NCBI GenBank assembly: GCA_003154155.1
Contig: PMCM01000112.1
Coordinates: 1 to 32,565, forward strand
DNA length: 32,565 nt
Reading direction: 5' to 3'
Source of the DNA: Ignavibacteriota bacterium
Lineage (GTDB): Bacteria > Bacteroidota > Ignavibacteria > UBA10030 > UBA6906
Position 1 is the first letter of the stretch. Every line of letters starts with the position of its first letter. This document shows positions 1-26,885 of this stretch, piece after piece. The translations under genes were made by a program, and so were the position numbers. Under the pieces are notes generated by a model. That model saw only the letters and a program-made list of their open reading frames with translations. It ran no database searches and was not told the DNA's origin.

Positions 1-107
1 GCGGGCATTACTACGGATGAGTCGGATGTCACGCGTGACGTCTGTTGTCCAAACCCGGGGATGGCCGTCAGCCAACAGAGCGCGAACACGACGGGCGCCG
101 TTCTCAT
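1..107 (-). CDS. Exported protein, N-terminal fragment cut by window edge
   Basis: Read leftward from 107, the sequence gives MRTAPVVFALCWLTAIPGFG followed by QQTSRVTSDSS and stays open to the window edge. The first 20 residues form a typical signal peptide: one arginine, a hydrophobic core, and a small residue before a likely cleavage site ahead of the glutamines. The start ATG overlaps the stop of the preceding PQQ-repeat lipoprotein gene as ATGA, so the two are probably translationally coupled and this is the next gene of that envelope operon. Only 35 codons are visible and no family can be assigned. Confidence 0.6.
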   Translation of the reverse strand, partial: MRTAPVVFALCWLTAIPGFGQQTSRVTSDSSVVMP

Positions 108-1258
108 CGAACACTTCCTTCGAATGCCTGCACGAGCCGGTCATCGGTGGCTATAAACACACGATCCGCCCCCACGACAGGCGTTGTTTTGATCCGTCCG
201 GAAACGCCGCCCTTCCAGAGTATCTCCCCTTTGGCGGCGTCGATCGCAATCAGTTCTTTCCTGAGCGTCCCGACATACAGCACGGCGTTGGCGGCAACTA
301 TTCCCGCGTTAATGGGTGAATGGACATCACAGGACCAGAGCAGTGCACCGGTGCGTTGATCCAGGGCGATGACGACTCCTCCGGTAGTCCCGACATAGCA
401 GCCCCCTCTGTGCAGGAGCGGGGGAGCATAAATTGCCGCACCCGAGGCATGGCTCCACAACAGGGAACCGCCGGTGAGCCCTACAGCGTACATCGTGCCG
501 TGCAACGTTCCCACGTAGACAGTGGTGTCGGCGATGGAAGGGCCCGCCTGGATGGCTCCGTCGGCGGCAAACGTCCATCGCACCTTTCCGGTACGGGCAT
601 CAAGATTGTACAACCGGCCGTCATCTGCGCCGAAGACCACATTGACATCCGCACCGGCAGGAGAGGAACGGATCCCCTTGAGGGAGGTGTTACCCGGGAG
701 GTCAAAATGCCATACCGTCTCTCCGGTGGAGCGATCGACAGCCGTGAACCTGCCGCTGACATTTCCGACAAATACCCGGGCGTCCATGAGCAGGGGGGAT
801 GCCTGGATGTCGACGAGGGCGGTCTTCCAGCGTGCCTTGCCTTCGAGAAAATCATAGCCGATGAGCGTCTCATGTGATCCCGCGACCGGCACGATCACCA
901 GATCCCCGTCGATCACCGGAGCACCCTCGATCGATCCGCCGAGGGTGACCCAGCCGATGCGCTTGCCCGTTTTGGCGTTCAAGGCGTACAGTTCGCCGCG
1001 CAAATTGCCGACCATGATGATGCTGTCGACGAGAAGCAGGGAGCCTGACCCGATGCCCGCTGTAATGTCCTGCTCCCACACCTGCGTCAGGGGGGGCAGT
1101 ATGGTGACCGCGAGGGCGTTCACACGTCCGATGGTATGGGCAAACGTCGGGGTATCATTTTTACCGGGCCGCAACGGATAGCCCAGTCGCAACCCGCTGC
1201 ACCCATTCAGAAGACTGACCGCACAAACAAGCAGGAACGTGCATATCCGGAGGCTCAT
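104..1258 (-). CDS. PQQ-repeat (BamB-like) beta-propeller lipoprotein
   Basis: This 384-residue protein begins with a lipoprotein signal peptide (hydrophobic stretch, then LLNGC), so it is predicted to be lipid-anchored. The rest is a run of PQQ-like propeller blades, seen as repeated units such as LDARTGKVRW, LDQRTGALLW and IDAAKGEILW alternating with VYVGT strands. This is the fold of BamB, the outer-membrane assembly lipoprotein, and of PQQ-enzyme propellers; no PQQ enzyme active site is apparent. Its ATG shares one base with the stop of the upstream gene (TGATG), and that gene ends in an Omp85-type barrel. A BamB-like scaffold role beside this barrel is therefore a reasonable inference, but other extracytoplasmic propeller roles are possible. 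Confidence 0.8.
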   Translation of the reverse strand: MSLRICTFLLVCAVSLLNGCSGLRLGYPLRPGKNDTPTFAHTIGRVNALAVTILPPLTQVWEQDITAGIGSGSLLLVDSIIMVGNLRGELYALNAKTGKRIGWVTLGGSIEGAPVIDGDLVIVPVAGSHETLIGYDFLEGKARWKTALVDIQASPLLMDARVFVGNVSGRFTAVDRSTGETVWHFDLPGNTSLKGIRSSPAGADVNVVFGADDGRLYNLDARTGKVRWTFAADGAIQAGPSIADTTVYVGTLHGTMYAVGLTGGSLLWSHASGAAIYAPPLLHRGGCYVGTTGGVVIALDQRTGALLWSCDVHSPINAGIVAANAVLYVGTLRKELIAIDAAKGEILWKGGVSGRIKTTPVVGADRVFIATDDRLVQAFEGSVR

Positions 1259-4086
1259 CAGAAGTCGTATCCGAAAAAGAACTGGTGGAACAGCCCGTCC
1301 TGAAACCTGTTGAAGTTGTCTTCGATGCGCTTGCCGAGATCATAGCGCAGCACGAGGACGCCGCCGAGGTTGAGACGAATGCCGCCGCCGACGCTTCCGA
1401 GTGTCTGCAGGTAGTCTGTGTCCCATGCACTGCCGGCATCGAAAAAGAGGGCGCCGCGGATGGAGAAAAAGCTCAGGCCGAAGAACGGGAAGCGGACGGC
1501 CAATTCATCGATGAAGGGAAAACGCAATTCGTGGCTTGTCAACCAGAGTTTTTCTCCGCGGATGCTCCAGCGGTCATATCCCCGGAGATCCCAGCTCCCA
1601 CCCATGACAAAACGGCGGGATTCCTTCCCGTCGTTGTAAAAAATCCAGAAGCGGGAGGCGAAGGCGCTGCGCTGGCCGAGCCGGATATAGCTGCGATAGT
1701 CCGCGATCACGGAAAAGTAGTTGACGTTGGAGTACTGGATATCGGAGGTGTACGCGAGCGTCAGATTGAATCTGCTGCCATCCAGCGGACCGCTCGGCCC
1801 CCAGAGGGAATTGTCGTGGGTGAACGCCAATGAATTGGAGACGAGAAGAGCCTTGCGTTCCTCAATCGCACCGTCCACCTCACGATTGGAATTGCTGACA
1901 CTTACTCCCGATTCGATGCGATCAAACTTTGAGATCGGATAGCTCAGGGCAAAATAGCCGCCGAAGACCCGCTCGTAGTAGTATTCATCCTTGGAGGTCA
2001 GATCGTAACGGCGTCCGGTGAACCGGTAGATGCCGTAGGCGTAGTTTGTCCGCTGGCTGAGGGAAATACGGGATATCGCGATGTTGAAGCTGGACAACAG
2101 CTCGTCCTGCGTTTCGGCAGTATTGTAGAGAAGGAAGTAATACTGTTCATTGCCGAGCACATCGCTCAGGGAGAGGAAGGCCCCGCCCGAGGTTCCGAAA
2201 ACGGGATCGGTGGAAATCGTGCTTTGCGCGAAATCCAAGCTGTATTCACCGCGGTATTTGTATCGTTCCTGTTCATTCTCCCCGCGCAGGCTCTGCGGTT
2301 CCCATGGAGCGCCATGAGCGCCGACATCCAAGACCATGGTGGTCGTGGACGTGTCGAGCACGGTCTGTACGTGGGGGATCATCTGAAGCCGGAAACTGAA
2401 TTTCTCAAATGCGGTGAAGACCAGGTCGCCGGAGGAGGTCCATGCGGGATCGAAGGCGGAGGTCAGGAATGCGCTGACCCGGGTCATCATGCGGTGTCCG
2501 GCAGGATGGGGCATCTGCATGTTCATGACCCAGATGTTATTAACCCCGCCGGCGTCACAGGTGAATGCCAGCTGCGACCCGTCATGTGACCATGCCGGCG
2601 AGCCGGCGCTCTCTTTTCCATAGGTGAGGTATTCAATATCGCCGGAGGCCAGATCGTAGAGGAAGAGATTATAGGCTCCGTCTTTGCCGAAGGGCGTACG
2701 ATCAGACACAAACGCGATCTTGTCGCCGTGGGGCGACCACGCGGGATCCCGGTCATCGTAGGTGTCATCGGTCAGTCGCCGGAGTTCCCGTGTATCCGTA
2801 TTCAGGATATACAGGTCATTCTGTCCCCCCCGGTCGATAGCGGAGAACGCCACCCGTTTGCCGTCAGGGGCCCAGGAAACGGACCCGATGCTGACGAGCT
2901 GGGTGAACCGGAAGGTATTGATCATATCGTCGGTGACCACGTCATAGATATGCAGCGCATCCTGCTCGCCGCTTTTCGTCACGAATGCGAGGAGCCCCAG
3001 GCGGGAGATGTCGATCCGGCTCCGCAGGGGATGAAAGGCTTCAAGTTCGTCGGTCTGTTCCCCTTTGATGATGTTGGTTGCGGGGGACTCGGGATTCGGG
3101 TCATTCAGACTCTTTTTATATATGCCGGTATATCCCGTCCGGTTGCCCACAAAGTATACTTCCCGTGTGGTGTCGTGTTCAAACACGGTCGGTTTTGCAT
3201 TGAATCCTTCGATGACAATTCTCTTGGCGGCCTGACTCGGTTGATCACTCACTGCCAGGAGGGGGTAATACTGCTTCTTTAGCGCATAAAGCCACTCCTC
3301 GTCGAATTCGCGGAACCCCTTGCCGATGGTAAGGCGGAACACATCATTGAACGAAGCCTCTTTCCAGAAATTCTCCATCAGCAAAAGCACTTTTTCGTCT
3401 CCATATCGCGCGGCCAGGTGCTTGAGCGCATTCTGTCCTTCCTTGTACATCAGGAACGAGCCGTAGATCTGATCCATATCTACGAGGCCGACGGCGATGT
3501 CGTTCAGTACGGCGTCGCGCATGACCATTTCCGCCTGTTCATCCCATTCGGTCGACCAGAATTCCGCGAGGCCTTCGACGAACCAGAGGGGGGGATACCG
3601 GTCCTGCGTTTTACGGTGGTCGGTCAGCACCCGGCCGATCTTGCTGTGCATGAACACATGGACAAGTTCGTGGCGGATCACATGACGGAACTGGGGGATC
3701 GAACCATCGGCAGGGATGACGACGCGCCCTTTCAAGAACTCAAAGAAACCGCCGACGCCTTCCGGGATGAACCCCCCGGTTGTGTTCGTTTGCTCGAAAT
3801 GGAGGTGCGAACTGTAAAAGATAAGGGGGACGCGCGCGTTGAGGGAGTGATTAAACTTCACCTGGAGAAGCCCGTAGGCTTCCTCGGCAAAAAAGGCCCC
3901 GCGTTCGGCGAGGTCCTTCATATCGGCGTAGTAATAGATGTCAAAGTGTTCGGTACGGAGGACGTGCCAGTCGAAATCGGTGTACTGGACTTTGTTGCGC
4001 CCGAAATAGAAGAACTGTGCATGCACCGTGGAAGCAACGGTGAGGAGGACGAAAACGATGGGTATGGTAAAGAAGGATCTCTTCAT
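1258..4086 (-). CDS. Gluzincin protease / TolB-like propeller / Omp85 barrel fusion
   Basis: This large exported protein (942 residues from the chosen start) has three parts. Residues 1-24 are a signal peptide beginning MKRSFFTIP and ending VHAQ. An N-terminal domain carries a zinc-protease HELVH motif at about 139-143 and a downstream EGLAE at 171-175, the layout of peptidase MA-type gluzincins. Residues about 300-570 hold WD40/TolB-like (PD40) repeats such as SWAPDGKRVAFSA, AWSPHGDKIAFVSD and AWSHDGSQLAFTCD. The C-terminal third is an Omp85/BamA-type surface-antigen barrel with a GGSWDLRGY motif at about 829-837 and a terminal phenylalanine. An in-frame ATG at 4104 would add six residues, but the signal peptide fits 4086 better. 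The gene overlaps the downstream lipoprotein by one base. The domain assignments are by motif; the joint function is unknown. Confidence 0.85.
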   Translation of the reverse strand: MKRSFFTIPIVFVLLTVASTVHAQFFYFGRNKVQYTDFDWHVLRTEHFDIYYYADMKDLAERGAFFAEEAYGLLQVKFNHSLNARVPLIFYSSHLHFEQTNTTGGFIPEGVGGFFEFLKGRVVIPADGSIPQFRHVIRHELVHVFMHSKIGRVLTDHRKTQDRYPPLWFVEGLAEFWSTEWDEQAEMVMRDAVLNDIAVGLVDMDQIYGSFLMYKEGQNALKHLAARYGDEKVLLLMENFWKEASFNDVFRLTIGKGFREFDEEWLYALKKQYYPLLAVSDQPSQAAKRIVIEGFNAKPTVFEHDTTREVYFVGNRTGYTGIYKKSLNDPNPESPATNIIKGEQTDELEAFHPLRSRIDISRLGLLAFVTKSGEQDALHIYDVVTDDMINTFRFTQLVSIGSVSWAPDGKRVAFSAIDRGGQNDLYILNTDTRELRRLTDDTYDDRDPAWSPHGDKIAFVSDRTPFGKDGAYNLFLYDLASGDIEYLTYGKESAGSPAWSHDGSQLAFTCDAGGVNNIWVMNMQMPHPAGHRMMTRVSAFLTSAFDPAWTSSGDLVFTAFEKFSFRLQMIPHVQTVLDTSTTTMVLDVGAHGAPWEPQSLRGENEQERYKYRGEYSLDFAQSTISTDPVFGTSGGAFLSLSDVLGNEQYYFLLYNTAETQDELLSSFNIAISRISLSQRTNYAYGIYRFTGRRYDLTSKDEYYYERVFGGYFALSYPISKFDRIESGVSVSNSNREVDGAIEERKALLVSNSLAFTHDNSLWGPSGPLDGSRFNLTLAYTSDIQYSNVNYFSVIADYRSYIRLGQRSAFASRFWIFYNDGKESRRFVMGGSWDLRGYDRWSIRGEKLWLTSHELRFPFIDELAVRFPFFGLSFFSIRGALFFDAGSAWDTDYLQTLGSVGGGIRLNLGGVLVLRYDLGKRIEDNFNRFQDGLFHQFFFGYDF

Positions 4087-4188: not shown

Positions 4189-5145
4189 TTACTTCTCCGG
4201 TTCTTTCGGGGCCTTGGCTTTTGCCGGGACTGCCGGTTTCTTCGTGGCCGAGCGCGTCGTGTCTTTCTGCGTCTCCCGTCGGGGTGCCGGATGAAGAACC
4301 GCTGGTGGTGTTCGCTTCTTTTCTATGACGCGGGGTGGCGGGGTGGAGGGAGGGGTAGGCTTGGCTGGGGCCGGTCGTGCTGCGGCTGCGGGGAGAACAG
4401 GTGCCGGTTGCTCGGTCGTCGCTGGTGCAGGAAGCGGTGGGGCTGCCTGGACCGGCTGGACCACGTTATCACCCGTGATGTGGATCCTGGTGAGTGTGCG
4501 TTGGCCGTGAACGACATTCTCCTTCTCCGTCCGCCGCTCCCGCACCTGCTGGTTGGCTGTACGCTCGATCTCCCTGGGATCGGGCGGTTTTTCCCTGCTG
4601 CCGGTCCGGCCTGCCATCGGGAGTGCGGGAGGTGCTGTCCGTGTGCGGAACCGGCTTACCCCCGGTTGAACAAAATGATCGGCAGGCACCACCACCCAGT
4701 ACCGGTCACCGCCCGACTCGAAGGCGTCGGGGAATTCGGCCCGCGGCGGCGGAAGCGGGGCCCAGCCGACGTAGTGGTCGGTGACATACCAGCGGACGCG
4801 CGCCGGGGACCATTCATAACCCGGTACCCATACCCATCCGTCCGCGCCGAACCTTGTCCAGCTCCCATAATGATAGACAACCCAACCGTACGGTTCGTCT
4901 GAATCCCACACCCATCCACGATCTGTCCAGACCCACTGACCGTCGACAAATGGGGACCAGTCTCCAGGGACGGCGGGCTGCCAGACGCGGCCATAGCCGG
5001 GGACCTCGATCCAGTTGCCGTAACCGCTGAGGACGGGGAATGGGTCCTGGACTTGCGGGGTGGGTGTGTGGGTCGTGACGTCACCGGCTCCACAACCGGC
5101 GAAGAGAACGGCGACGAGTGAGAAATGCACAAGGAGGTTTTTCAT
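4189..5145 (-). CDS. DUF6600-like tryptophan-rich lipoprotein with proline-rich tail
   Basis: The 318-residue product starts MKNLLVHFSLVAVLFAGC, a lipoprotein signal with the acylated cysteine at 18. Residues about 35-135 contain the tryptophan/tyrosine/glycine-rich repeats typical of DUF6600 proteins, for example GYGRVWQPAVPGDWSPF, GQWVWTDRGWVW, YGWVVYHYGSW and a closing VGWAPLPP. The remainder is low-complexity proline/alanine/lysine-rich sequence, likely a flexible periplasmic or cell-wall-spanning tail. The frame runs open for another 98 codons upstream, but that part has no protein character. The ATG at 5145 is preceded by AGGA at good spacing. DUF6600 has no established function. The gene stands alone between gaps of about 100 and 136 bases. 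Confidence 0.75.
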   Translation of the reverse strand: MKNLLVHFSLVAVLFAGCGAGDVTTHTPTPQVQDPFPVLSGYGNWIEVPGYGRVWQPAVPGDWSPFVDGQWVWTDRGWVWDSDEPYGWVVYHYGSWTRFGADGWVWVPGYEWSPARVRWYVTDHYVGWAPLPPPRAEFPDAFESGGDRYWVVVPADHFVQPGVSRFRTRTAPPALPMAGRTGSREKPPDPREIERTANQQVRERRTEKENVVHGQRTLTRIHITGDNVVQPVQAAPPLPAPATTEQPAPVLPAAAARPAPAKPTPPSTPPPRVIEKKRTPPAVLHPAPRRETQKDTTRSATKKPAVPAKAKAPKEPEK

Positions 5146-5281
5146 GCCGTTCCTGTTGTTCGATGGTACCGCATTTGCCCGCAAGGCTTCTTCCCTATTC
5201 AACACCGGGAAAAACGTCAGGAGTTCCGCGCAGGCGCTCACGACCGTGTGCGGTCTCCGGTCGATGACGCAAGTACGGGTC

Positions 5282-6331
5282 TCAGTGCTGTGCGAGCGAC
5301 TGCTTGAGATAGTCGATGACGGCGACGGGCGTCGGGTCTTCGCCGTGGAGGATCGCCATATAGCAGCTGACCCAGTCGCCAAGCTGCACCAGGGAGAACA
5401 GGCGGGCGAGCAGGCTTTTGCCTTCGCTCCACACTTCAACCACGTGTCCGGTATACCGGCTGATGATCTCCCGTGTCAATTCCATGCGGATCTGCACGCG
5501 CTTGTGGTCATCCTTGTCGCGCAGAAAGACCACGACCATTTCGCGCATTTCATTTTCGAGGACTTTCCAGCCGACGAGCTCGTTGTGGTTCATTTCCGGG
5601 AGCACGTGGCCGAAGGCGAGGGCCTTGCTGTTCTCGGCAATCTGTCCGCGCCAGCGTGTATTGACCGCGTCAAAACGTTCTGTAGACGAATAGCAGACGG
5701 TGATCCGGTGGTGCAGTTTTTGCGCGAGCGCGAGTGCCGGGTTGGTTGAAGGATCCAGGCCGGCGAAGCGCTGTGTCCCGGCATCCATCAGCGCAACCGT
5801 TTCGGCGATGTCCTTTTGACGGCTTTTGATGAGTCCGAGACGGGCGAGGGAGACCAGCAGGGGGAAGAAGGAGTAGCCGAGTGCCGCTCTGGGGGGGAGG
5901 CCGCCGGGCACCTTGATGAACGGCGAACGGCCCTTGCGGGCGAGTTGTTCGGTCAGGCCGTTGGACGACACACACAACAGGCGTGCCTTCCGTTTGAGTG
6001 CCTCCCGGTGCGCCGTAGTGGTTTCCTCGGTGTTGCCCGAATAGCTGGAAATGATGACCAGCGAGTTCGGCCCGACAAATTTCGGCAGCGTGTAGTTGCG
6101 GTTGACGATGAAGGGGACGGGCAGTTCGTCGGCGAGGTAGCTGCGCAGCAGATCGCCGCCGATGGCGGATCCTCCCAGGCCGCACATCACGATATTCCGG
6201 ATGCCGGCGGTGCGCATGCGTACCTGTGCGTTTTCCGCGATCGCCAGGGCATCGCGGATCTGATCGGGAAAACCACGCAGCAGTGTGAGCATGCCGGAAC
6301 GGTCAATTTTGGTGATGTCGTCGGACGTCAT
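5282..6331 (-). CDS. Bifunctional phosphoglucose/phosphomannose isomerase
   Basis: This 349-residue SIS-domain enzyme interconverts glucose-6-phosphate or mannose-6-phosphate with fructose-6-phosphate. The first SIS half shows GLGGSAIGGD (51-60) and the phosphosugar loop SSYSGNTEET (95-104), followed by PGGLPPRAALGYSFFP, a hallmark of the family first described in crenarchaea. In the second half, the RWRGQIAEN and PEMNHNELVGW segments supply the glutamate (about 233) and histidine (about 249) corresponding to the catalytic pair of that family. The gene follows ptsI by 13 bases, and its AGGAA ribosome site overlaps the ptsI stop region, so it is the last gene of the fni-to-isomerase operon. 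It links the operon to sugar-phosphate and probably mannose metabolism. Confidence 0.9.
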   Translation of the reverse strand: MTSDDITKIDRSGMLTLLRGFPDQIRDALAIAENAQVRMRTAGIRNIVMCGLGGSAIGGDLLRSYLADELPVPFIVNRNYTLPKFVGPNSLVIISSYSGNTEETTTAHREALKRKARLLCVSSNGLTEQLARKGRSPFIKVPGGLPPRAALGYSFFPLLVSLARLGLIKSRQKDIAETVALMDAGTQRFAGLDPSTNPALALAQKLHHRITVCYSSTERFDAVNTRWRGQIAENSKALAFGHVLPEMNHNELVGWKVLENEMREMVVVFLRDKDDHKRVQIRMELTREIISRYTGHVVEVWSEGKSLLARLFSLVQLGDWVSCYMAILHGEDPTPVAVIDYLKQSLAQH

Positions 6332-6344
6332 GGGGGTATTCCTG

Positions 6345-8123
6345 TTAGTGTGAGGTCCCTTCGAACTCGAGGGGGATTTCCGGGACCTTGTTTTTGATCA
6401 TGGACGACAAGAACGCGCGGATTTCCGCTTCCGTGTGCAGTGAGCAGACTTTGTCCGCGACGCGTTTCGCGTCTTTCACTTTGATGGACCGGATGATTTT
6501 CTTGATTTCCGGCAGCACAGGGGGGATGACGCTCAGTTCATCGACGCCGAGCCCGACCAGGAACGCCGTGGCGAGGGGGTCGCCGGCCATTTCGCCGCAC
6601 ACGCCCACCCAGATATTTTTCCGGTGTGCCGCCTCGACGACATGCCGCAGGGTGCGCACGACGGCGGGATGATACGGCTGGAAGAGCCGCGCGACGGCGT
6701 CGTTGCCGCGGTCGACGGCCATGATGTACTGCACCAGGTCGTTTGTGCCGATACTCAGGAAATGGACTTCGGCCGCAATCTGCTCCGCCATCATGGCGGC
6801 TGCGGGGACTTCGATCATCACGCCGACTTTTATGCGTGCGTCGAACTTCACGCCGTGCGCTTTCAGTTCGTCCATTGCCTGCCGGAGCAGATGCTTGGCT
6901 TGCTGCACCTCGGTGACGGTGGAGACCATCGGAAACATAATGCGGACGTTGCGCCGCGTGCTCGCCCGGAGGATCGCACGCAGCTGATCAAGGAAGATAT
7001 CGTGCCGATCAAGCATCACGCGGATTCCGCGCCAGCCAAGAAAGGGGTTTTCTTCGTGCTGGCCGTCGGGCGCAAGCTTGTCCCCTCCGACATCGAATGT
7101 CCGGAAAATGACCGGATGGGGGAATGCCGATTCGGCGACCCGCGCGTACAGTGCCGCCTGCTCGTCTTCGCTGGGATATGCCGCTTTGCCGATGAGCTGC
7201 ATCTCCGTCCGGAATAGTCCCACGCCTTCCGACCCCTGGAGGCGGGCGAACTCGACCTCCTCCGCGAATTCGACATTCGACGAAAGCTCGATGTGTTTTT
7301 TGTCCAGCGTGTCCGCCGGGAGGGCGGCAATGCCCGCCAGCTCCTGTGCGAAAGCGAGGAAGCGCTCCGCACGGGCTTGCAGAATCTTGAGCGTATCGGG
7401 GGTCGGGTTGATGATCAGAACGCCGGCATAGCCATCAATGGCCAGCGAATCGCCCGTGGCGATCTGTTTCGTTGCGTTATGCAGTCCGACCACGGCCGGT
7501 ATCTTCAGGGAACGCGAGAGCAGGGCGGCATGAGACGTGACGCCGCCGAGATCGGTGGCATACCCCAGGATCTGGTTGCGGCTGAAAATAACGGTGTCGG
7601 CGGGGGCCAGGGTCTCCGACACGATGATCGAAGCGCCTTCGAGCCGGGAATACAACTTCTGGTCCTGGATATTCCTGATGATGCGGTTCATCACGTCGTC
7701 CACATCGTGCGCGCGTTCGTGCATGTACTCGTCGGGCGACGCGAGCATCATCTGCCGGTATTTGTTGATTTCATCTGCGACGATGAATTCCGCATTCAGC
7801 AACTCCGTGGCGATGCGGTGTTTGATGGACCCCATCAGGATCGCATCGCCGAGGATCATGATTTGCGCTTCGAAGATCGTGGCGCTCTGGGAGCCGAGCT
7901 TCTGTTCGGCAAACGTGAGGACCTTGCGGAGTTCTTTTTCGGAACGCGCATTGGCCGCCTGCAACCGTTCGATCTCCGCATCGACATCGTCCGGCGTGAT
8001 GGCTTTCCGTTCCACGCGCGGGATCTGTTTCGTATACAGATACGCCGGCCCGGTAGCAATGCCGGGCGCTGCGGCGATCCCCTTTAGGACGATTTCTTCC
8101 GTGCCGTGGTGTGGTGTGTCCAT
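6345..8123 (-). CDS. ptsI: PTS enzyme I (phosphoenolpyruvate-protein phosphotransferase)
   Basis: Enzyme I takes phosphate from phosphoenolpyruvate onto a histidine and passes it to HPr. The 592-residue product is full length. It has the GIAAAPGIATGPAY start, the swivelling-domain active site DLGGVTSHAALLSRS with phospho-acceptor His198, the PEP-binding barrel segments GLFRTEM and FRTFDVGGDK, and the catalytic cysteine in VCGEMAGDP (Cys509). It starts two bases after the ptsH stop, so both are expressed together. No EII sugar-permease genes are in the window. The pair may serve a permease encoded elsewhere or a regulatory PTS, which cannot be decided here. Confidence 0.95.
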   Translation of the reverse strand: MDTPHHGTEEIVLKGIAAAPGIATGPAYLYTKQIPRVERKAITPDDVDAEIERLQAANARSEKELRKVLTFAEQKLGSQSATIFEAQIMILGDAILMGSIKHRIATELLNAEFIVADEINKYRQMMLASPDEYMHERAHDVDDVMNRIIRNIQDQKLYSRLEGASIIVSETLAPADTVIFSRNQILGYATDLGGVTSHAALLSRSLKIPAVVGLHNATKQIATGDSLAIDGYAGVLIINPTPDTLKILQARAERFLAFAQELAGIAALPADTLDKKHIELSSNVEFAEEVEFARLQGSEGVGLFRTEMQLIGKAAYPSEDEQAALYARVAESAFPHPVIFRTFDVGGDKLAPDGQHEENPFLGWRGIRVMLDRHDIFLDQLRAILRASTRRNVRIMFPMVSTVTEVQQAKHLLRQAMDELKAHGVKFDARIKVGVMIEVPAAAMMAEQIAAEVHFLSIGTNDLVQYIMAVDRGNDAVARLFQPYHPAVVRTLRHVVEAAHRKNIWVGVCGEMAGDPLATAFLVGLGVDELSVIPPVLPEIKKIIRSIKVKDAKRVADKVCSLHTEAEIRAFLSSMIKNKVPEIPLEFEGTSH

Positions 8124-18291: not shown

Positions 18292-18327
18292 ACGTATTCT
18301 CTGAATAACAAGGGGTATGTGGGGTTC

Positions 18328-20463
18328 ATGGTGAAACGGTTCCTCCTGCTGTTGGTGCTCGGGTTGATTGCTGCGCCGTTTGCCGTTGCGCAATCGGATG
18401 CGGATTGTCTCGGCTGTCACGGCGATGCATCACTCAGCATGTCGCGTCAAGGGAAGAACATCTCCCTGCATGTTGACGCCGGGGCATTCGGAAAATCGGC
18501 GCACGCCGACCTGGGATGCGTCGCCTGCCATGAAGGCTTCAACCCCAACGAATTGCCCCACGCCGCAACGATCACCCCGGTAAACTGTTTCTCCTGCCAC
18601 CAGGACCACCAGCTTGAGCACTATGCGCAGAGCGTCCATGGTAAGGTCATTGAGGGAAAACCGGTGGCTGCCGGGTGTGTCGATTGCCACTCGAAACATG
18701 CGATCACGAAGATTACCGACCTCGAGCCGGGCAGGAGGAAGGAATTCGACCTTGCGCTCTGCTCGCGCTGCCACGGCGACGTTGCCGCACATTATCTCAT
18801 GTCGGACCACAGCAGGGCGTTTGCGAGCGGTGTCAAAGGCGCTCCCGGGTGCATTGATTGCCATGGCGAGCATGCAATCAGAGCCGGCAGCGACTCGCTG
18901 TCTGCGACATCCCGGATGCATGTCTCGGCGACATGTCTGAAATGCCATCTCGACAATCCCGAAGTCCGGGCGCGTGTCGGCCCGTCGGCCGGATTCATCG
19001 CCAGTTACGAGCAGAGCGTCCACGGCCAGGCGATCAAGAACGGAAATGAAGCGGCGGCGACGTGCATCGATTGTCACACCGCACACGAGGTGAAGAAGGG
19101 CGCCAACCCGGCGTCCGGCGTGGCGAAACAGAATATCGCATCGACATGTGGCCAGTGCCACGGCGATATCCGCGATCAGTATGAGGAGAGCATCCACGGA
19201 AAATCGCTCGCGCGCGGGATTACCGCTGCGCCGACATGCACCGACTGCCACGGTGAACATTTTATCCTCTCCCCGAAGGACGCGCGTTCGCCTGTCGCGG
19301 CGGCAAATGTTTCCACACAAGTCTGCTCCCCCTGCCACGCGTCGGTCAAGGTCACACAGAAGTTCGGCATGGCGAACGACCGCTATCAGTCGTTTGCCGA
19401 CAGTTACCACGGGCTTGCCAACAGCGCGGGCTCGGTGGTCGTGGCGAATTGCGCGAGCTGCCACGGCGTGCACGACATCAAGCCGTCGTCCGATTCCACT
19501 TCGCGCATTCATCCATCGCACCTTGCCCAGACATGCGGCAAGTGCCACCCGGGGGCGAACACCAATTTCACCCGGGGTGCGGTGCATGTCATCCCTGCCT
19601 CAGGTCAGGACTCGGTTCTGTATTTCGTGGCGAACTCGTATATCGTCCTGATTTTCGTGATCATCGGCGGGATGGTCCTCCACAACATCCTGGATTTTCT
19701 GAAAAAATCGCGCCGCCAGCTGGCCTACCGGCGCGGCGAGTTGCAGCGATCGCATGTTGCCCACCGGCTCTACGTCCGGATGACCGTACAGGAGCGGATA
19801 CAGCATGGGACGTTGCTTGTAAGTTTCATTACCCTGGTGCTGACCGGTTTTGCGCTGCGCTATCCGGATGCCTGGTGGGTTGCATCGATCCGCTCGATCA
19901 GCACCTGGATGTTCGAGTTCCGGGGGATCGCGCACAGGGTCGCCGCAGTCGTGCTTGTTACGGCAAGCCTGTACCATATCTACTACGTGTTGTTTGTGCC
20001 TCGCGGCAAGCAACTCATGCGGGATCTCCTGCCGCGCAGGCAGGATATTGCCGATGCGGTGGATATCCTGAAGTACAATTTCGGTTTTTCCAAGAGCAAG
20101 CCCCGTTTTGGCCGTTTCAGCTATATTGAGAAAAGCGAGTACTGGGCGCTTGTCTGGGGGACGTTCATCATGGGGCTTACAGGCGTTATCCTCTGGTTCG
20201 ACAACACATCGCTCAATCTGATCACAAAATTGTGGTGGGATGTGGCCCGGACGGTGCACTATTATGAAGCCTGGCTGGCAACGCTCGCGATTATCGTCTG
20301 GCACTTCTACTTTGTCATATTCAACCCGGACACCTACCCGATCAATCTGGCGTTTTGGAAGGGGACGTTAACCGAGGAAGAGATGGAGGAAGAGCATCCG
20401 CTGGAATTGGAAGAGATCAAGCGGAAGGAGATGGAGCAGGAACATCAGACGCCGAAAGCCTGA
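18328..20463 (+). CDS. 13-haem cytochrome c fused to membrane cytochrome b (CbcL-like layout)
   Basis: The 711-residue protein begins with a signal peptide (MVKRFLLLLVLGLIAAPFAVA). Residues 27-406 carry thirteen CxxCH sites (for example CLGCH at 27, CFSCH at 87, CIDCH at 175, CGQCH at 274, CGKCH at 403), so this half is periplasmic. The C-terminal half has about five membrane helices (roughly 432-455, 490-511, 537-557, 606-624, 647-666) with histidines 493, 536, 550, 644 and 659 as candidate b-haem ligands, as in cytochrome b561/FdnI-type domains. This resembles CbcL of Geobacter, a quinol-oxidising fusion with nine c-haems. A GTG three codons upstream is possible, but ATG 18328 gives the better signal peptide. 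It opens the electron-transfer cluster. Confidence 0.9.
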   Translation: MVKRFLLLLVLGLIAAPFAVAQSDADCLGCHGDASLSMSRQGKNISLHVDAGAFGKSAHADLGCVACHEGFNPNELPHAATITPVNCFSCHQDHQLEHYAQSVHGKVIEGKPVAAGCVDCHSKHAITKITDLEPGRRKEFDLALCSRCHGDVAAHYLMSDHSRAFASGVKGAPGCIDCHGEHAIRAGSDSLSATSRMHVSATCLKCHLDNPEVRARVGPSAGFIASYEQSVHGQAIKNGNEAAATCIDCHTAHEVKKGANPASGVAKQNIASTCGQCHGDIRDQYEESIHGKSLARGITAAPTCTDCHGEHFILSPKDARSPVAAANVSTQVCSPCHASVKVTQKFGMANDRYQSFADSYHGLANSAGSVVVANCASCHGVHDIKPSSDSTSRIHPSHLAQTCGKCHPGANTNFTRGAVHVIPASGQDSVLYFVANSYIVLIFVIIGGMVLHNILDFLKKSRRQLAYRRGELQRSHVAHRLYVRMTVQERIQHGTLLVSFITLVLTGFALRYPDAWWVASIRSISTWMFEFRGIAHRVAAVVLVTASLYHIYYVLFVPRGKQLMRDLLPRRQDIADAVDILKYNFGFSKSKPRFGRFSYIEKSEYWALVWGTFIMGLTGVILWFDNTSLNLITKLWWDVARTVHYYEAWLATLAIIVWHFYFVIFNPDTYPINLAFWKGTLTEEEMEEEHPLELEEIKRKEMEQEHQTPKA

Positions 20464-20516
20464 AAGAGTGGCATCTTTTTGTGATTTGCACTACATTCTC
20501 GACATCAACACACTTT

Positions 20517-20521
20517 GGAGG
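20517..20521 (+). promoter_or_regulatory. Strong ribosome binding site fixing the tetrahaem cytochrome start
   Basis: GGAGG lies nine bases before ATG 20531. It selects the MKALTVV signal-peptide start over an upstream in-frame start at 20468 that has no signal-peptide character. Confidence 0.8.
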
Positions 20522-20530
20522 AGAGGTTCA

Positions 20531-21067
20531 ATGAAAGCACTCACTGTAGTTCTGGCGATCGTCCTGACCGTGGCTCTTCTTGCTGGAACCTCGGTTGCCG
20601 AGAACAAGTTTGTCGGCACCAAATCCTGCGCTATGTGTCATAAGGCGAAGGACAAGGGCGAAGCATTCACCATCTGGCAGAAGAGCGCGCACGCGAACGC
20701 TTTTAAGACGCTCGAAGGAGATGCGGCAAAGAAGATCGCCAAGGAAAAAGGCATTGCCAAGCCGCCGTCAGAAGCCCCGGAATGCCTGGCCTGCCATGTG
20801 ACGGGCGGCGGAGCTGCGAAGAATGTCGACGCCACATTCGACATGAAAGAAGGCGTGACGTGTGAGGCATGCCACGGCGCAGCTTCCGGATTCAAAATGA
20901 TTCACACGAAGGCCGAGAACAAGGCGAAAGCAGTGGAAGCCGGCCTGTTGACGGGTGACAAGGCAAGGATCTGCGAGACCTGCCACAATGCGAAGAGCCC
21001 GACGTTCAAGGGTTTCAAGATGGCAGAGATGTGGGCAAAGATCGAACACAAGCTTCCGAAGAAGTAG
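20531..21067 (+). CDS. Tetrahaem cytochrome c554-type protein
   Basis: The 178-residue product has a signal peptide (MKALTVVLAIVLTVALLAGT, cleaved near SVAE) and four CxxCH sites: CAMCH (33), CLACH (85), CEACH (111) and CETCH (148). The opening FVGTKSCAMCHKAKDKGEAF and the spacing resemble the cytochrome c554 family of small soluble periplasmic tetrahaem proteins. Known c554 takes electrons from hydroxylamine oxidoreductase in nitrifiers, but relatives occur widely and no such partner is here. Its place between two membrane quinol-oxidising cytochromes suggests a shuttle carrying electrons across the periplasm to the 14-haem protein. It lies 67 bases after the 13-haem gene and is followed by a hairpin that may reduce transcription of the genes beyond. 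Confidence 0.9.
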   Translation: MKALTVVLAIVLTVALLAGTSVAENKFVGTKSCAMCHKAKDKGEAFTIWQKSAHANAFKTLEGDAAKKIAKEKGIAKPPSEAPECLACHVTGGGAAKNVDATFDMKEGVTCEACHGAASGFKMIHTKAENKAKAVEAGLLTGDKARICETCHNAKSPTFKGFKMAEMWAKIEHKLPKK

Positions 21068-21090
21068 GCGGGCGGTAACCGGTATGAGCC

Positions 21091-21134
21091 AAGGGGGTAA
21101 CCGGAGCCCTGTCTCCGTGAGCCCCCTTTGCTTT
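21091..21134 (+). terminator. Hairpin within the cytochrome cluster (partial terminator)
   Basis: AAGGGGG (21091-21097) pairs with CCCCCTT (21122-21128), enclosing CGGAG/CTCCG around a 6-base loop. The tail TTTGCTTT is only partly U-rich. It lies 23 bases after the tetrahaem gene stop and may give that gene more transcript than the following ones. Confidence 0.6.
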
Positions 21135-21163
21135 GTCTAGAGATCATTGAGGCCCTGACGCCG

Positions 21164-22663
21164 ATGGCAAAACGCAGACTACCTGATTTGCTGTACAACC
21201 CGATGAGTATTTTCGGCGGTGTACTGGCGGCTGTCTGTTTGTTGACGATCATTTTTCTGACCTGTGTGGATCTGTTTCAGTACCAGCCCCCAGCGTACAT
21301 CGGCATCATCTCGTACGTTCTTCTTCCTGTTCCCCTGTTGCTGGGGCTCTGTGTGCTTGTTCTCGGTGTCCTGCGGGAACGCCGTCGCCGGCTCCGGGGC
21401 GAGGCCGCAAGCAGGTTGCTGTTCACGATCGATCTGAATCTTCCGCGGCAGCGGGCCGCGATGACGCTCTTTTCGGCCGTTGCCTGCATCGTGCTCCTGT
21501 TTACGGCATACGGGAGCTACCGGGTGTTTGAATGGACAGAATCCGTCGCGTTCTGCGGCACCACCTGCCACACGGTGATGGAGCCGGAGTACACCGCCTA
21601 CCAGGGTTCCCCGCATGCCCGGGTCAAATGCGTTGAGTGCCACGTGGGTTCGGGCGCCGGCTGGTATGTCCGGTCCAAGCTTTCCGGGGCGTATCAGATT
21701 TATGCGGTCATGACCAACGTCTATCCGCGGCCGATCCCGACGCCGATCCAGAACTTGCGTCCTGCCCAGGAGACCTGCGAACAGTGTCACTGGCCTTCGC
21801 ATTTCTCCGGCGAAAAGAAGCTCGTCAACCGGTATTTCAAGTCGGATGAACAGAACACTCCCTGGACGATAGCGTTGATGATGAAAATCGGCGGCGGCAA
21901 CGAAGCGCGCGGGCCGTCGGGCGGCATCCACTGGCATATGAATATTGCCAACGAAGTCCGGTATGTGGCGGTTGACACCTTGCACCAGAATATTCCGATC
22001 GTCTCGATCCGTAACCGGAAGAGCGGCGAGGTGACCGAGTATGTAGCCGAGAGTGCGGCGGCGGATGCGGGGAAGCTCCGTGCACAGTCGTGGTCCACCA
22101 TGGACTGCATCGATTGTCATAACCGGCCTTCGCACATCTATCGCCCTCCCATGCGTATTGTGGACCAGAGCATGGCGGTGGGACGGATTTCCCCGGCGCT
22201 TCCGCATGTGCGCGAACAGGGGATTGCGATTCTTTCGCAGCCATATGCGACGACCGCGGGTGCCGTCGACAGCATCGCGCTGCAATTGCGTGCCTTCTAT
22301 GCGTCCTCCTATCCTCTGATCGCGGCATCACAGGGTGCGCTGGTGGACGCCGCGATTGCGGAATTGCAGGCGCAGTACCGGAGGAACTTCTTCCCGACCA
22401 TGAACGTCAAGTGGAGCGCCTATCCGAACAACATCGGCCACATGACGGATCTGGGTTGTTTCCGGTGTCATGACGGGAAGCACGTCAGCGCCGACGGCCG
22501 CAGGATCTCGAAGGACTGCAACAGCTGTCACACCATTGTGTACCAGGGAACGGAGCCCGTGCCGCAGACGCTGACGGTGGCAGGCCTTCCGTTCCAGCAT
22601 CCCGAAGACATCGGCGATGCCTGGCAGCAGACCAATTGTGTCGAATGCCACTCGGGACTATAA
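21164..22663 (+). CDS. 7-haem NapC/NirT-family quinol dehydrogenase (ImcH-like)
   Basis: The 499-residue product has three N-terminal membrane helices (about 14-36, 46-70, 98-118) and then a periplasmic cytochrome domain. Six CxxCH sites (CVECH 156, CEQCH 205, CIDCH, CFRCH, CNSCH and a terminal CVECH) join one atypical CGTTCH (131-136) right after the third helix, where NapC/NrfH relatives have their quinol-proximal haem. It is followed by TVME, keeping a nearby methionine. Three helices, seven haems and a NapC core match the layout of ImcH, the inner-membrane quinol oxidase of Geobacter used with high-potential acceptors. The start ATG 21164 follows TTGAGG; the longer frame runs into the hairpin. 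It probably passes electrons to the porin-cytochrome trio downstream. Confidence 0.88.
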   Translation: MAKRRLPDLLYNPMSIFGGVLAAVCLLTIIFLTCVDLFQYQPPAYIGIISYVLLPVPLLLGLCVLVLGVLRERRRRLRGEAASRLLFTIDLNLPRQRAAMTLFSAVACIVLLFTAYGSYRVFEWTESVAFCGTTCHTVMEPEYTAYQGSPHARVKCVECHVGSGAGWYVRSKLSGAYQIYAVMTNVYPRPIPTPIQNLRPAQETCEQCHWPSHFSGEKKLVNRYFKSDEQNTPWTIALMMKIGGGNEARGPSGGIHWHMNIANEVRYVAVDTLHQNIPIVSIRNRKSGEVTEYVAESAAADAGKLRAQSWSTMDCIDCHNRPSHIYRPPMRIVDQSMAVGRISPALPHVREQGIAILSQPYATTAGAVDSIALQLRAFYASSYPLIAASQGALVDAAIAELQAQYRRNFFPTMNVKWSAYPNNIGHMTDLGCFRCHDGKHVSADGRRISKDCNSCHTIVYQGTEPVPQTLTVAGLPFQHPEDIGDAWQQTNCVECHSGL

Positions 22664-22714
22664 GCCGTGCGGAGAGGTGAACAACGATCAGGTGGTCATG
22701 AAAGGGAATCGGGT

Positions 22715-24025
22715 ATGAAAGGAACACGCCTCCTCGGCCTCGCTCTCCTGGTGACGCTCGGAGCGGCGATGGCTGCAGCCCAGTTGGTGACGGGGCGATT
22801 GGTGACCTCCTTCTACGCCTGGGAGCGCTTCGACACCGTCGGCACGTCGCAGCAATCGGTGCGGGCATTCCAGGCCGTCCAGTTGTCGATCGCCCAGGGT
22901 GATGTGTCCCTGAACACCTCCCTCATGGGTACCTCCAACCTCGTGGGCGCATTCGGCGATGTCGGCAGGGTGCGCTTCTACAATCTGTTTCTCAGCTGGC
23001 TCAACATCGGCAAGATGGTCGACCTCCATCTGGGCCGTCAGTTCGTGTATGCCGGGGTCGGCAATGGCACGATCGACGGCGTGATGGCCCAGGCGCATTT
23101 CCTGCAACGGGCCGTTACGGTGACGGGTTTCGGCGGCGCCACGGTGGGGCCGGACTTTACCGGTGTGCGGAGCGACATGCACGACAATTACCACTTCGGC
23201 GGGCAGGTGCTCACGACGCTGATTCCGAACACGCGGTTGGGATTGAGCTATGCCAACCGGCGTGAAGCCCGGGATCCGTACTGGACGTTGCGGACACGGG
23301 ACACCACCTATGCCGCGTACGCGTACTATGTCGCTCCCTATGCCGATGCAGAGGAGCTGGGCAGCGCGGATGCGTCGTACACCCTGCGAGACCGGCTTTC
23401 GGTCTACGGCCGGTACGACTATGACTTCAAGAACGACCGGACATCGCGGGCACAGGGAGGGGTGCGTGTGAATGTGACCGGGGCGCTGACGCTGACCGGC
23501 GACTACATCCACCGGATTCCGGTGATCTCCTACAATTCCATCTTTTCCGCCTTCGTGGCGAATGCCGTCGACGAGCTGGAAGGGGGTGTGGAATACGGCT
23601 TCACGCCGCTTCTCCGCGCCTTCGGGCGCGTCGCCAGCGTGAAATACAGCGACGACAAGAGCACCCGGTGGTCGTTCGGGGTGAACAGCGGCTATGGAAG
23701 CCTGAGTTACTCGGGCAGTGACGGGTATGCGGGCGAGCTGCAGTCGCTGAGCATCCAGGGGACATACCCGCTGTTCGGGCGGGTTGTTGTTCCCAGCGCG
23801 GGCATCTCGTACGCCTCGTACCGTTTGAGCGCAGAAAGCTCACGGGACAACGCTCTGGGCATAGTGGTCGGGGCGATGGTGCGTCCGGCCACGGCGTTCA
23901 GTTTCGACGTGCAGGGACAATGGCTCAGCAACAAATTACTGCAGCAGGACATGCGCCTGCAGATCAGGCTGATGTACTGGTTCGCACAACGGCTCTCGAT
24001 TTTTAATGGGGAGGGTAAGCAATGA
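22715..24025 (+). CDS. Outer-membrane beta-barrel, porin of a porin-cytochrome complex
   Basis: The 436-residue product starts with a signal peptide (MKGTRLLGLALLVTLGAAMA, ending AAAQ) and has no haem motif. The remainder alternates short amphipathic strands rich in Y, F, G and S with turns, for example LHLGRQFVYAGVG, LGLSYANRREARD, LSVYGRYDYDFKND, LTLTGDYIHRIP and LQIRLMYWFAQRLSIF, as expected for an outer-membrane barrel of perhaps 16-20 strands. It does not end in the usual aromatic residue. Its stop overlaps the next cytochrome gene as ATGA, and a multihaem lipoprotein follows, which is the gene order of porin-cytochrome conduits such as OmbB-OmaB-OmcB. The role as haem-sheathing porin is inferred from this context. 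AGGGAA lies upstream of ATG 22715. Confidence 0.8.
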   Translation: MKGTRLLGLALLVTLGAAMAAAQLVTGRLVTSFYAWERFDTVGTSQQSVRAFQAVQLSIAQGDVSLNTSLMGTSNLVGAFGDVGRVRFYNLFLSWLNIGKMVDLHLGRQFVYAGVGNGTIDGVMAQAHFLQRAVTVTGFGGATVGPDFTGVRSDMHDNYHFGGQVLTTLIPNTRLGLSYANRREARDPYWTLRTRDTTYAAYAYYVAPYADAEELGSADASYTLRDRLSVYGRYDYDFKNDRTSRAQGGVRVNVTGALTLTGDYIHRIPVISYNSIFSAFVANAVDELEGGVEYGFTPLLRAFGRVASVKYSDDKSTRWSFGVNSGYGSLSYSGSDGYAGELQSLSIQGTYPLFGRVVVPSAGISYASYRLSAESSRDNALGIVVGAMVRPATAFSFDVQGQWLSNKLLQQDMRLQIRLMYWFAQRLSIFNGEGKQ

Positions 24026-25230
24026 AGCGGCGATCCTCTGTCATTCTCCTGGTCGCGGCCGGCGTGCTCGTATCGGCGGCGGTGGCGTTTCGTCCGACTG
24101 CCCGGCCGGGGTGGACCGTGCCGGACGACAGCAAACAGTTGAAGTTTTCCCACAAGACACATATCGAGGGCGCCGGCATCGGCTGCGAAACATGCCACCC
24201 GAATGCGTCCGCCAGCAAACTTGCCAGCGACAATCTGCGCAGCGTGCACGACAACTGCACTTCCTGTCATGAAGAGCAACTGAACAACCAGTGCGATTTC
24301 TGTCACAAGGATCCGGAGAACATCCAGGTCGCCCCTGCGCAGTTGCGCGAGCTGAATTTCTCGCACGAGCGCCATTTGAATATGAAGAATGTGCAGTGCA
24401 CCACGTGCCACACCCATTTGAACGAGGTAGATGTTGCCGGGCAGGAGAACATGCCCGACATGGCGACGTGCGCGACCTGCCACAACGACCGGAATGTCAG
24501 CAACGCCTGCGAATCGTGCCACACGAGCGTCGCGCAGTTGATACCGCCCGATCATCTGCAGGCGGGCTTCAAGAGGGACCACAAGAATCTTACGCGGCTG
24601 GGGGCCATGGAAACGAACTGTGCCACCTGCCACACGCAGAGTTTCTGCGGTGAATGTCACGATCCGGGTGCCGTCATCCAATTCGGGAAGGGCGCGATGA
24701 TGAGTGATCCCACCCCGCGGGTCTTCCCCGGCACGACCGCTCCGCAGATGAATCTGGAGCGTGCGCACGATCTGAACTACCGTTTCACGCACGGTATCGA
24801 TGCGAAATCCAAGGCCTCCGAGTGCTACACCTGTCATTCCGCCCAGGAGTTCTGCGGTGAATGCCACGAGGCCGGCGACAACATCACGTCCCGTTCCATC
24901 AAACCGGCGTGGCATCTGGGAGCCGGCTTTACGACCCTCGGCGTCGGGAGCGGTGGCGGGCGGCATGCCGAACTTGCGCGGCGCGACATTGAATCATGCG
25001 TCAGCTGCCACGATGCTCAGGGGAACGACCCGGTATGCATCACCTGTCACACCGATGGTGACGGCATTCGCGGCACGGATCCGCGGACACATCCTGCGGG
25101 CTACATGCAAGGCGAACACGGGCCGTGGCACGTCAACGGCGGCGCCACATGCTATAACTGCCATACCGACCTGAATGCCCATCCCGGCGGGGTCAAAGGC
25201 AGAAACTTCTGCGGCTATTGCCACGGCTAA
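24022..25230 (+). CDS. 14-haem periplasmic cytochrome c of the porin-cytochrome complex
   Basis: The 402-residue product starts MKRRSSVILLVAAGVLVSAA, a signal peptide or uncleaved anchor without a lipobox cysteine. It contains fourteen CxxCH sites, in order CETCH, CTSCH, CDFCH, CTTCH, CATCH, CESCH, CATCH, CGECH, CYTCH, CGECH, CVSCH, CITCH, CYNCH and CGYCH, the last ending the protein. Several free histidines in FSHKTH- and FSHERH-like segments fit sixth-ligand positions of cytochrome c3/c7-type packing. Overlap with the porin gene by four bases suggests fixed stoichiometry. By analogy with OmaB or MtrA it would sit inside or below the barrel and accept electrons from periplasmic carriers. The haem count exceeds that of OmaB (8) and MtrA (10). 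Confidence 0.9.
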   Translation: MKRRSSVILLVAAGVLVSAAVAFRPTARPGWTVPDDSKQLKFSHKTHIEGAGIGCETCHPNASASKLASDNLRSVHDNCTSCHEEQLNNQCDFCHKDPENIQVAPAQLRELNFSHERHLNMKNVQCTTCHTHLNEVDVAGQENMPDMATCATCHNDRNVSNACESCHTSVAQLIPPDHLQAGFKRDHKNLTRLGAMETNCATCHTQSFCGECHDPGAVIQFGKGAMMSDPTPRVFPGTTAPQMNLERAHDLNYRFTHGIDAKSKASECYTCHSAQEFCGECHEAGDNITSRSIKPAWHLGAGFTTLGVGSGGGRHAELARRDIESCVSCHDAQGNDPVCITCHTDGDGIRGTDPRTHPAGYMQGEHGPWHVNGGATCYNCHTDLNAHPGGVKGRNFCGYCHG

Positions 25231-25246
25231 GGAGGGCGGAACACTC

Positions 25247-26641: not shown

Positions 26642-26681
26642 TCTTCTGGGGCCCTCGCGGATGTAACTCCTCTGTGCACCG

Positions 26682-26723
26682 AATCCCGGCGCCGCTCTTG
26701 CGGGCCGGGATTCCTGCTTTTTC
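26682..26723 (+). terminator. Strong intrinsic terminator ending the cytochrome cluster
   Basis: AATCCCGGC (26682-26690) pairs perfectly with GCCGGGATT (26704-26712), with an inner CCGC/GCGG stem and TCTT loop, followed by CCTGCTTTTTC. It lies 40 bases after the lipoprotein cytochrome stop. Confidence 0.88.
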
Positions 26724-26749
26724 ACTCCTGCAAAGGGTTTCCCAAGGAT

Positions 26750-26761
26750 TGGAATATTCCA
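26750..26761. promoter_or_regulatory. Perfect 12-bp palindrome upstream of the haem-lyase promoter
   Basis: TGGAATATTCCA is its own reverse complement and lies 75 bases before the -24 element at 26836, a usual distance for an enhancer-type activator site. Factor unknown. Confidence 0.4.
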
Positions 26762-26835
26762 CCCCATTGGCACGGTCCAATTCATCCGAATGAGCCCCTT
26801 TTCAGGGTTTTGGCGTAGTCCTGACCCGGTTGAGG

Positions 26836-26850
26836 TGGCACACAACTTGA
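26836..26850 (+). promoter_or_regulatory. Sigma-54-type promoter of the haem-lyase operon
   Basis: TGGCAC (26836-26841), five bases, TTGA (26847-26850). It is the same variant as at 17161 and 18277. The predicted start near 26862 leaves a 24-base leader containing GGAG before ATG 26886. Confidence 0.6.
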
Positions 26851-26885
26851 CATTTGAAAGGTACCCAAGCATCTGTGGAGTATCA

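Follow-up and report, generated by a model that had tools for sequence, protein, structure and literature searches.

A peptidase-propeller-Omp85 fusion and its BamB-like lipoprotein neighbour: a candidate outer-membrane protease of Ignavibacteriota and related phyla

Introduction

Why would a zinc peptidase share one polypeptide with an outer-membrane barrel, and does such a protein work alone? The question is raised by a stretch of 32,565 nucleotides from an Ignavibacteriota bacterium (assembly GCA_003154155.1, contig PMCM01000112.1), analysed here as a whole and called the window. A preliminary description, made from its sequence alone, had placed a zinc protease, a TolB-type propeller and an Omp85 barrel in a single open frame, with a BamB-like lipoprotein encoded in the same operon, and had suggested a self-contained outer-membrane device that processes or secretes proteins. 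Here we describe the architecture of the fusion, the conservation of its catalytic residues, its distribution and its genomic partner, and weigh the functions that these observations suggest.

Results

The fusion gene occupies positions 1258..4086 of the minus strand (stop codon at 1260-1258) and encodes 942 residues. The plus strand of the same interval is not open and contains in-frame stops. The predicted order of domains is a putative signal peptide, a gluzincin-type zinc peptidase, a TolB-like propeller and a 16-stranded Omp85 barrel, all coordinates below being those of the minus strand. The putative signal peptide (residues 1-24, 4015..4086), recognized by eye, has a basic start and a hydrophobic run and is followed by the conserved string FFYFG. 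The peptidase domain (residues 24-285, 3232..4017) contains the zinc motif HELVH (residues 139-143, 3658..3672), the motif VEGLAE (residues 170-175, 3562..3579) in which E171 is presumed to be the third zinc ligand, and the candidate catalytic tyrosine Y214 (3445..3447). The propeller (residues 295-578, 2353..3204) is matched by the PD40 repeat profile of Pfam with E 5.5e-17. The barrel (residues 615-942, 1261..2244) is matched by the Omp85 profile PF01103 over residues 679-940 with E 4.9e-13, which exceeds the profile cut-off. It carries the motif LRGY (residues 834-837, 1576..1587) inside the longer string GGSWDLRGY (residues 829-837); we take LRGY to be the likely equivalent of the VRGF/Y motif in loop L6 of BamA. 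The four signatures named in the preliminary description, HELVH, EGLAE, PD40 and GGSWDLRGY, thus all lie in one protein, and its claim of a three-domain frame is borne out for the minus strand. Domain by domain, Pfam agrees with two AlphaFold2 models and with fold comparisons against the PDB. Orthologues with 48-65% identity keep a single unbroken frame from end to end, and this rules out a chance mosaic of motifs. No patatin domain is among the Pfam matches of the window protein.

The peptidase assignment was examined at the levels of profile, fold and residues. In an alignment of 12 relatives, Pfam profiles at E <=0.01 recover Peptidase_MA_2 in 12 members, PD40 in 11 and Omp85 in nine; two of these members, L014 and L016, are truncated at contig ends and lack the barrel. 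Predicted alone by AlphaFold2, the peptidase domain has a predicted local distance difference test score (pLDDT) of 76.6 and a predicted template modelling score (pTM) of 0.77. All 50 PDB entries listed for this model are zinc metallopeptidases, with Z between 10.5 and 13.8. The best are M30 lugdulysin (Z 13.8), M9 collagenases (about 12) and M1 aminopeptidases (about 11-12). These enzymes have the same fold and the same set of HExxH, downstream glutamate and tyrosine, but in the listed fold alignments they are only 9-17% identical to the fusion peptidase. None of the M1, M9 and M30 family profiles of Pfam matches the window protein at E 0.01; the M9 profile matches two of the 28 long or divergent members of the family described below. 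When the peptidase profile was compared with PDB sequences, a sub-threshold collagenase match was obtained (E 0.08), in which WWSEGIAEY was aligned with LWFVEGLAEY.

Conservation of the catalytic set was assessed in full-length homologues. After seven matches shorter than 850 residues had been set aside and duplicates merged, 95 sequences remained, and removal of two slices of the same genes left 93. HExxH followed by EGxA(E/Q/D) is present in 89 of these 93, all of which also have a tyrosine at the position of Y214. Loss of HExxH or of the third ligand in most homologues, which the preliminary description had named as fatal to its proposal, is therefore not what is found, and a degenerate peptidase is ruled out. 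With one exception, the catalytic glutamate and the tyrosine of these 89 are 71-76 residues apart, the window protein having a distance of 74; in lugdulysin, for which the title of PDB entry 7bb9 names E242 and Y315, it is 73. Four homologues (L118, L119, L120 and L004) keep HExxH and have Q or D in place of E175. Among the 41 sequences of the clade that includes the window protein, mean pairwise identity is highest in the peptidase (57.3%), followed by the barrel (53.2%) and the propeller (38.2%). This pattern fits selection for catalysis, short of proof, and suggests from sequence that the peptidase is probably active. In the remaining four homologues (L114-L117), which are divergent and have about 1120-1160 residues, HExxH, the glutamate motif and the tyrosine have been lost together. 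They would lend themselves naturally to testing for a non-proteolytic role.

A full-length AlphaFold2 model, built from a 12-row alignment, has mean pLDDT 71.3 and pTM 0.41, and its single domains are fairly confident. Residues 307-578 match TolB with Z 27.4 and a root mean square deviation (rmsd) of 2.5 over 243 residues. Residues 618-942 match BamA barrels with Z of about 20-22 and rmsd 3.3-3.9 over some 282-298 residues. In the model, DSSP assigns 16 main strands to residues 615-940, the number found in Omp85 proteins. The barrel thus agrees with Omp85 by both profile and structure, the second point on which the preliminary description might have failed. The xRGx pattern is present in all 41 members of the clade. 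No POTRA profile match was obtained in the 12 fusion members scanned, whereas POTRA does match in the BamA of the same genome.

The closest named relatives are from metagenome-assembled genomes of Ignavibacteria, at 63-64% identity; other relatives are labelled Bacteroidetes, Neomarinimicrobiota, Calditrichota and KSB1. Counting of the fusion across phyla, proposed in the preliminary description, gave matches at E 1e-20 in 93 of 148 genomes that sample Bacteroidota evenly. For the phyla labelled Neomarinimicrobiota, KSB1 and Calditrichota, the fusion was counted in 61/61, 59/59 and 39/40 genomes, respectively. The fusion is a family, not a single occurrence, and is widespread in the Fibrobacteres-Chlorobi-Bacteroidetes (FCB) superphylum. 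A tree of 93 sequences, midpoint-rooted and used only for naming clades, separates a short clade of mostly 940-1000 residues, which includes the window protein, from long clades of mostly 1040-1120 residues. Counted as matches at E 1e-140 or better, the short clade is present in 35 of the 148 Bacteroidota genomes and in 12/61, 44/59 and 35/40 genomes of the three other phyla, in the same order.

Directly downstream of the fusion, at 104..1258 of the minus strand, lies a gene encoding a BamB-like PQQ-propeller lipoprotein of 384 residues (PF13360, E 2.8e-48). Inspection by eye shows a lipobox-like LNGC, within LLNGC, near its N-terminus (1199..1210). The stop codon of the fusion overlaps the start codon of this gene in the string TGATG (1256..1260), in agreement with the operon proposed before. 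The protein scores 172.8 bits with TIGR03300, below the BamB equivalog cut-off of 285.2. A BamB-like gene directly follows the fusion in 58 of the 61 testable short-clade loci (in 57 at E <1e-10) and in none of 50 loci of other clades, one of which (L053) encodes a propeller-only protein. Loci with fewer than 400 bases downstream, namely L014 and L069 of the short clade and eight of other clades, were omitted from this count. Some of these short-clade loci also supplied the sequences for the partner profile. Gaps between the two genes were measured between stop-to-stop frames, and therefore overlaps are overstated. The short-clade loci without an adjacent BamB-like gene are L012, L058 and L161; the genome of L058 (G039) has one on another contig.

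A profile survey of the 148 genomes gives the same picture. A near-full-length BamB-like match is found in 31 of the 35 short-clade genomes, with a further piece at a contig edge in G047, and in none of the remaining 113, 12 of which give partial internal matches only. Genomes G001, G006 and G096 have no strong match in the survey, yet have a BamB-like gene, mostly divergent, adjacent to the fusion; the scores at these loci are E 1.5e-5 (L086), 2.7e-14 (L085) and 5.9e-43 (L087). The pair of fusion and partner persists at loci where other neighbours are not seen. In the window's genome the partner is the sole close BamB-like gene, and BamA is encoded separately, with 452 bits, above its cut-off. 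The idea that the partner is merely the ordinary BamB of the organism was rejected as far as its presence is concerned: across genomes, near-full-length BamB-like genes occur together with the short-clade fusion, and the window's genome encodes BamA at a distance from the pair. The partner may still bind BamA.

The long clade seems to keep other company. An AsmA/TamB-like gene is near the fusion in 11 of 30 long-clade loci, and in ten of these (L049, L057, L061, L068, L089, L090, L092, L098, L099 and L103) the three genes share a strand, in the order AsmA/TamB-like, RNase R, fusion, and often only a few bases separate RNase R from the fusion. Most other long-clade loci have neither gene within 2-6.4 kb upstream, and no AsmA/TamB-like neighbour was seen in the window's own clade in the stretches covered. 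This suggests a different partner for the long clade, a lead that lies outside the claim made for the window protein. Among the 28 long or divergent members, Pfam recovers Peptidase_MA_2 in 18 and Omp85 in nine; as this recovery is partial, the alignment with the window protein is part of the basis for their three-domain architecture. In one long-clade frame of 1530 residues (L066:4559-9148), the peptidase, propeller and barrel are preceded by about 450 additional N-terminal residues that match no Pfam profile.

Besides the short-clade fusion, the window's genome has two further copies, one of the long clade on contig C77 and a divergent one on C285. On contig C316 there is a piece of TamL with TamB nearby. 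Two patatin-Omp85 (PlpD-like) proteins are encoded at L133 and L138, only one of them with a POTRA match, and further Omp85 matches are at L139, L140 and L141.

Upstream of the fusion, on the same strand (5282..8123), are genes for a phosphoglucose/phosphomannose isomerase (PGI) and for enzyme I of the phosphotransferase system (PTS), often in the same order in relatives. IDI2, IDS, PTS enzyme I and PGI were considered as functional partners. They are not seen at several loci that keep the pair, for example L081, L084 and L088, and thus are regarded as inherited neighbours. A DUF6600 protein with a lipobox-like LFAGCG is encoded between the isomerase and the fusion (4189-5289, minus strand) and was not regularly seen beside the fusion in relatives. 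Elsewhere in the window, a run of multihaem cytochrome genes on the plus strand (18319-29111), with matches to Cytochrome_C7/c3 profiles, a NapC/NirT-type protein and a b561-containing multihaem fusion, is followed by a CcmF-like assembly gene. This is a possible respiratory or extracellular electron-transfer cluster.

Discussion

What could such a protein do? The reading that we prefer, and to which we give about an even chance, is that the fusion is a membrane-anchored, periplasm-facing zinc endopeptidase that forms a complex with the BamB-like lipoprotein and cuts outer-membrane or exported polypeptides. Its basis, computed here, is the architecture, the conservation of the catalytic set, the linkage and co-occurrence of the partner and the wide distribution; from these we infer the orientation, the complex, the proteolytic activity and the class of substrate. 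Even-stranded Omp85 barrels have both ends in the periplasm, and therefore the propeller and the peptidase should face the periplasm. The barrel would be seated in the outer membrane with its ends on that side, the propeller beneath it would hold the gluzincin domain in the periplasm, and the lipoprotein from the overlapping gene would join the fusion. Both propellers may catch extended or unfolded outer-membrane or exported polypeptides close to the barrel. The peptidase would then cut the captured chains, either clearing stalled and misfolded substrates or making a defined maturation cut. The overall logic would be that of BepA, BamB and an Omp85 barrel brought together in one two-protein complex. 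The near-constant presence of the BamB-like lipoprotein gene beside the fusion in this clade favours a two-protein device over a self-contained one and makes the self-sufficiency proposed in the preliminary description doubtful; the processing suggested there is plausible from sequence.

Several observations weigh against this reading. In the window protein the Peptidase_MA_2 match (E 2.8e-5) scores 24.5 bits, below the cut-off of 32.4, and membership in clan MA (gluzincins) is claimed on motif and fold for this reason; two long-clade members exceed the cut-off (L049 with 35.7 bits, L066 with 45.3). A Foldseek search with the peptidase alone returned the same kinds of enzymes with weak E-values, 5.4e-3 at best, and residues from about 94 to 128, ahead of the zinc motif, are poorly modelled. 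Because of its low pTM the full-length model does not give the relative placement of the domains. Structure prediction, another check named in the preliminary description, thus recovered the fold of each domain and did not yield their arrangement. Finally, the counts that link fusion and partner are inflated by shared ancestry, and the linkage may partly be kinship.

In the simplest alternative, the barrel is a mere anchor and the peptidase trims or degrades exported or nutrient peptides in the periplasm, with no role in outer-membrane protein assembly. The missing POTRA matches, the nearest folds, which are those of general peptidases, collagenases and aminopeptidases, and the metabolic genes upstream all agree with this. 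However, an anchor needs neither a strongly conserved Omp85 barrel, such as is seen in the short clade both in overall identity and in the invariant xRGx pattern, nor a dedicated BamB-like partner, and we regard this alternative as rather unlikely. An insertase, translocase or lipid-handling Omp85 without POTRA, in which the peptidase fold serves chiefly for binding or gating and proteolysis is of lesser importance, is unlikely in our view. Such a role, which the long paralogue would share, would accord with the general role of Omp85, with the AsmA/TamB-like genes at 11 long-clade loci, ten of them in the order with RNase R, and with the four deep members that lack the catalytic residues and keep the remainder of the protein. 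It is at odds with the intact catalytic set in 89 of the 93 members, and the window's own clade has no AsmA/TamB-like neighbour in the stretches covered.

Least probable, indeed very unlikely, is a type-V-like device whose barrel would serve to bring peptidase and propeller to the cell surface. It would explain the order of passenger before barrel, and PlpD was formerly interpreted as type Vd. But a folded propeller would be a poor passenger, and the lipoprotein from the same operon suits the periplasmic side better, though surface lipoproteins exist in the phylum. PlpD, the best-studied enzyme-Omp85 fusion, itself speaks against export: once called a secretion system, it keeps its enzyme domain in the periplasm, according to the part of the source available (PMC11116518). 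The secretion proposed in the preliminary description is unsupported here. PlpD and other patatin-Omp85 proteins resemble the fusion in having an N-terminal, periplasmic enzyme joined to an Omp85 barrel; they differ in that PlpD is a lipase with POTRA, forms a homodimer and has no propeller (PMC11116518).

Among known systems, the BAM complex is comparable in two respects: the partner is a PQQ-propeller lipoprotein like BamB, and the barrel is BamA-like. It differs in that the partner is below the BamB cut-off, the fusion lacks POTRA, and BamA is a separate protein of the genome. The profile PF00149, which belongs to calcineurin-type metallophosphoesterases, does not describe an HExxH gluzincin. 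It is on this profile that the 'Metallo' subfamily of Omp85 rests, which likewise has an enzyme domain, called a metalloprotease, ahead of the barrel, and for which the passages available mention no propeller (PMC4104836). That paper, by Heinz and Lithgow (2014), defined ten Omp85 subfamilies, among them WD40-Omp85, whose TolB-like propeller led the authors to compare it to a fusion of BamA and BamB (PMC4104836). WD40-Omp85 likewise has a TolB-like propeller before the barrel, no POTRA and no assigned function. As described, it differs from the fusion: in the passages available neither a peptidase domain nor a separate BamB-like partner is named, and the main text, as far as available, has no word starting with 'peptidase', 'zinc' or 'gluzincin' (PMC4104836). 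BepA (YfgC), an M48 metalloprotease whose targets are substrates stalled at BAM, offers the likeness of a periplasmic zinc metalloprotease tied to an Omp85 machine, as described in the part of the source available (PMC13067283); it is a separate protein, and no M48 profile is among the matches of the fusion. In a recent structural study of BAM in F. johnsoniae, BamADGH is given as the core of the phylum, and 'BamB' and 'propeller' occur nowhere in the text available (PMC12611786). In the open-licence full text of PMC, that is, apart from subscription papers and preprints, we found no report of a gluzincin-propeller-Omp85 protein or of its lipoprotein partner. As judged from sequence, the fusion appears to be of the WD40-Omp85 kind, to carry a zinc peptidase that is conserved and probably active, and to have a BamB-like partner dedicated to it; it is apparently unstudied.

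A wider proposal is speculative, and we think it rather improbable: this protease-coupled Omp85 machine without POTRA, with its own BamB-like subunit, might be a second outer-membrane assembly or quality-control system throughout the FCB superphylum, distinct from BAM and TAM. A single complex would then decide whether a substrate is inserted (or retained) or destroyed. The long paralogue, sometimes encoded beside an AsmA/TamB-like bridge protein, would be a sister system.

The family is near-universal in the three other FCB phyla sampled and common in Bacteroidota, yet its peptidase and partner seem to be undescribed in the open-licence literature. If the pair of fusion and lipoprotein is a proteolytic outer-membrane quality-control complex, this would be a new function for Omp85 proteins and a directly testable genetic target for a whole superphylum.

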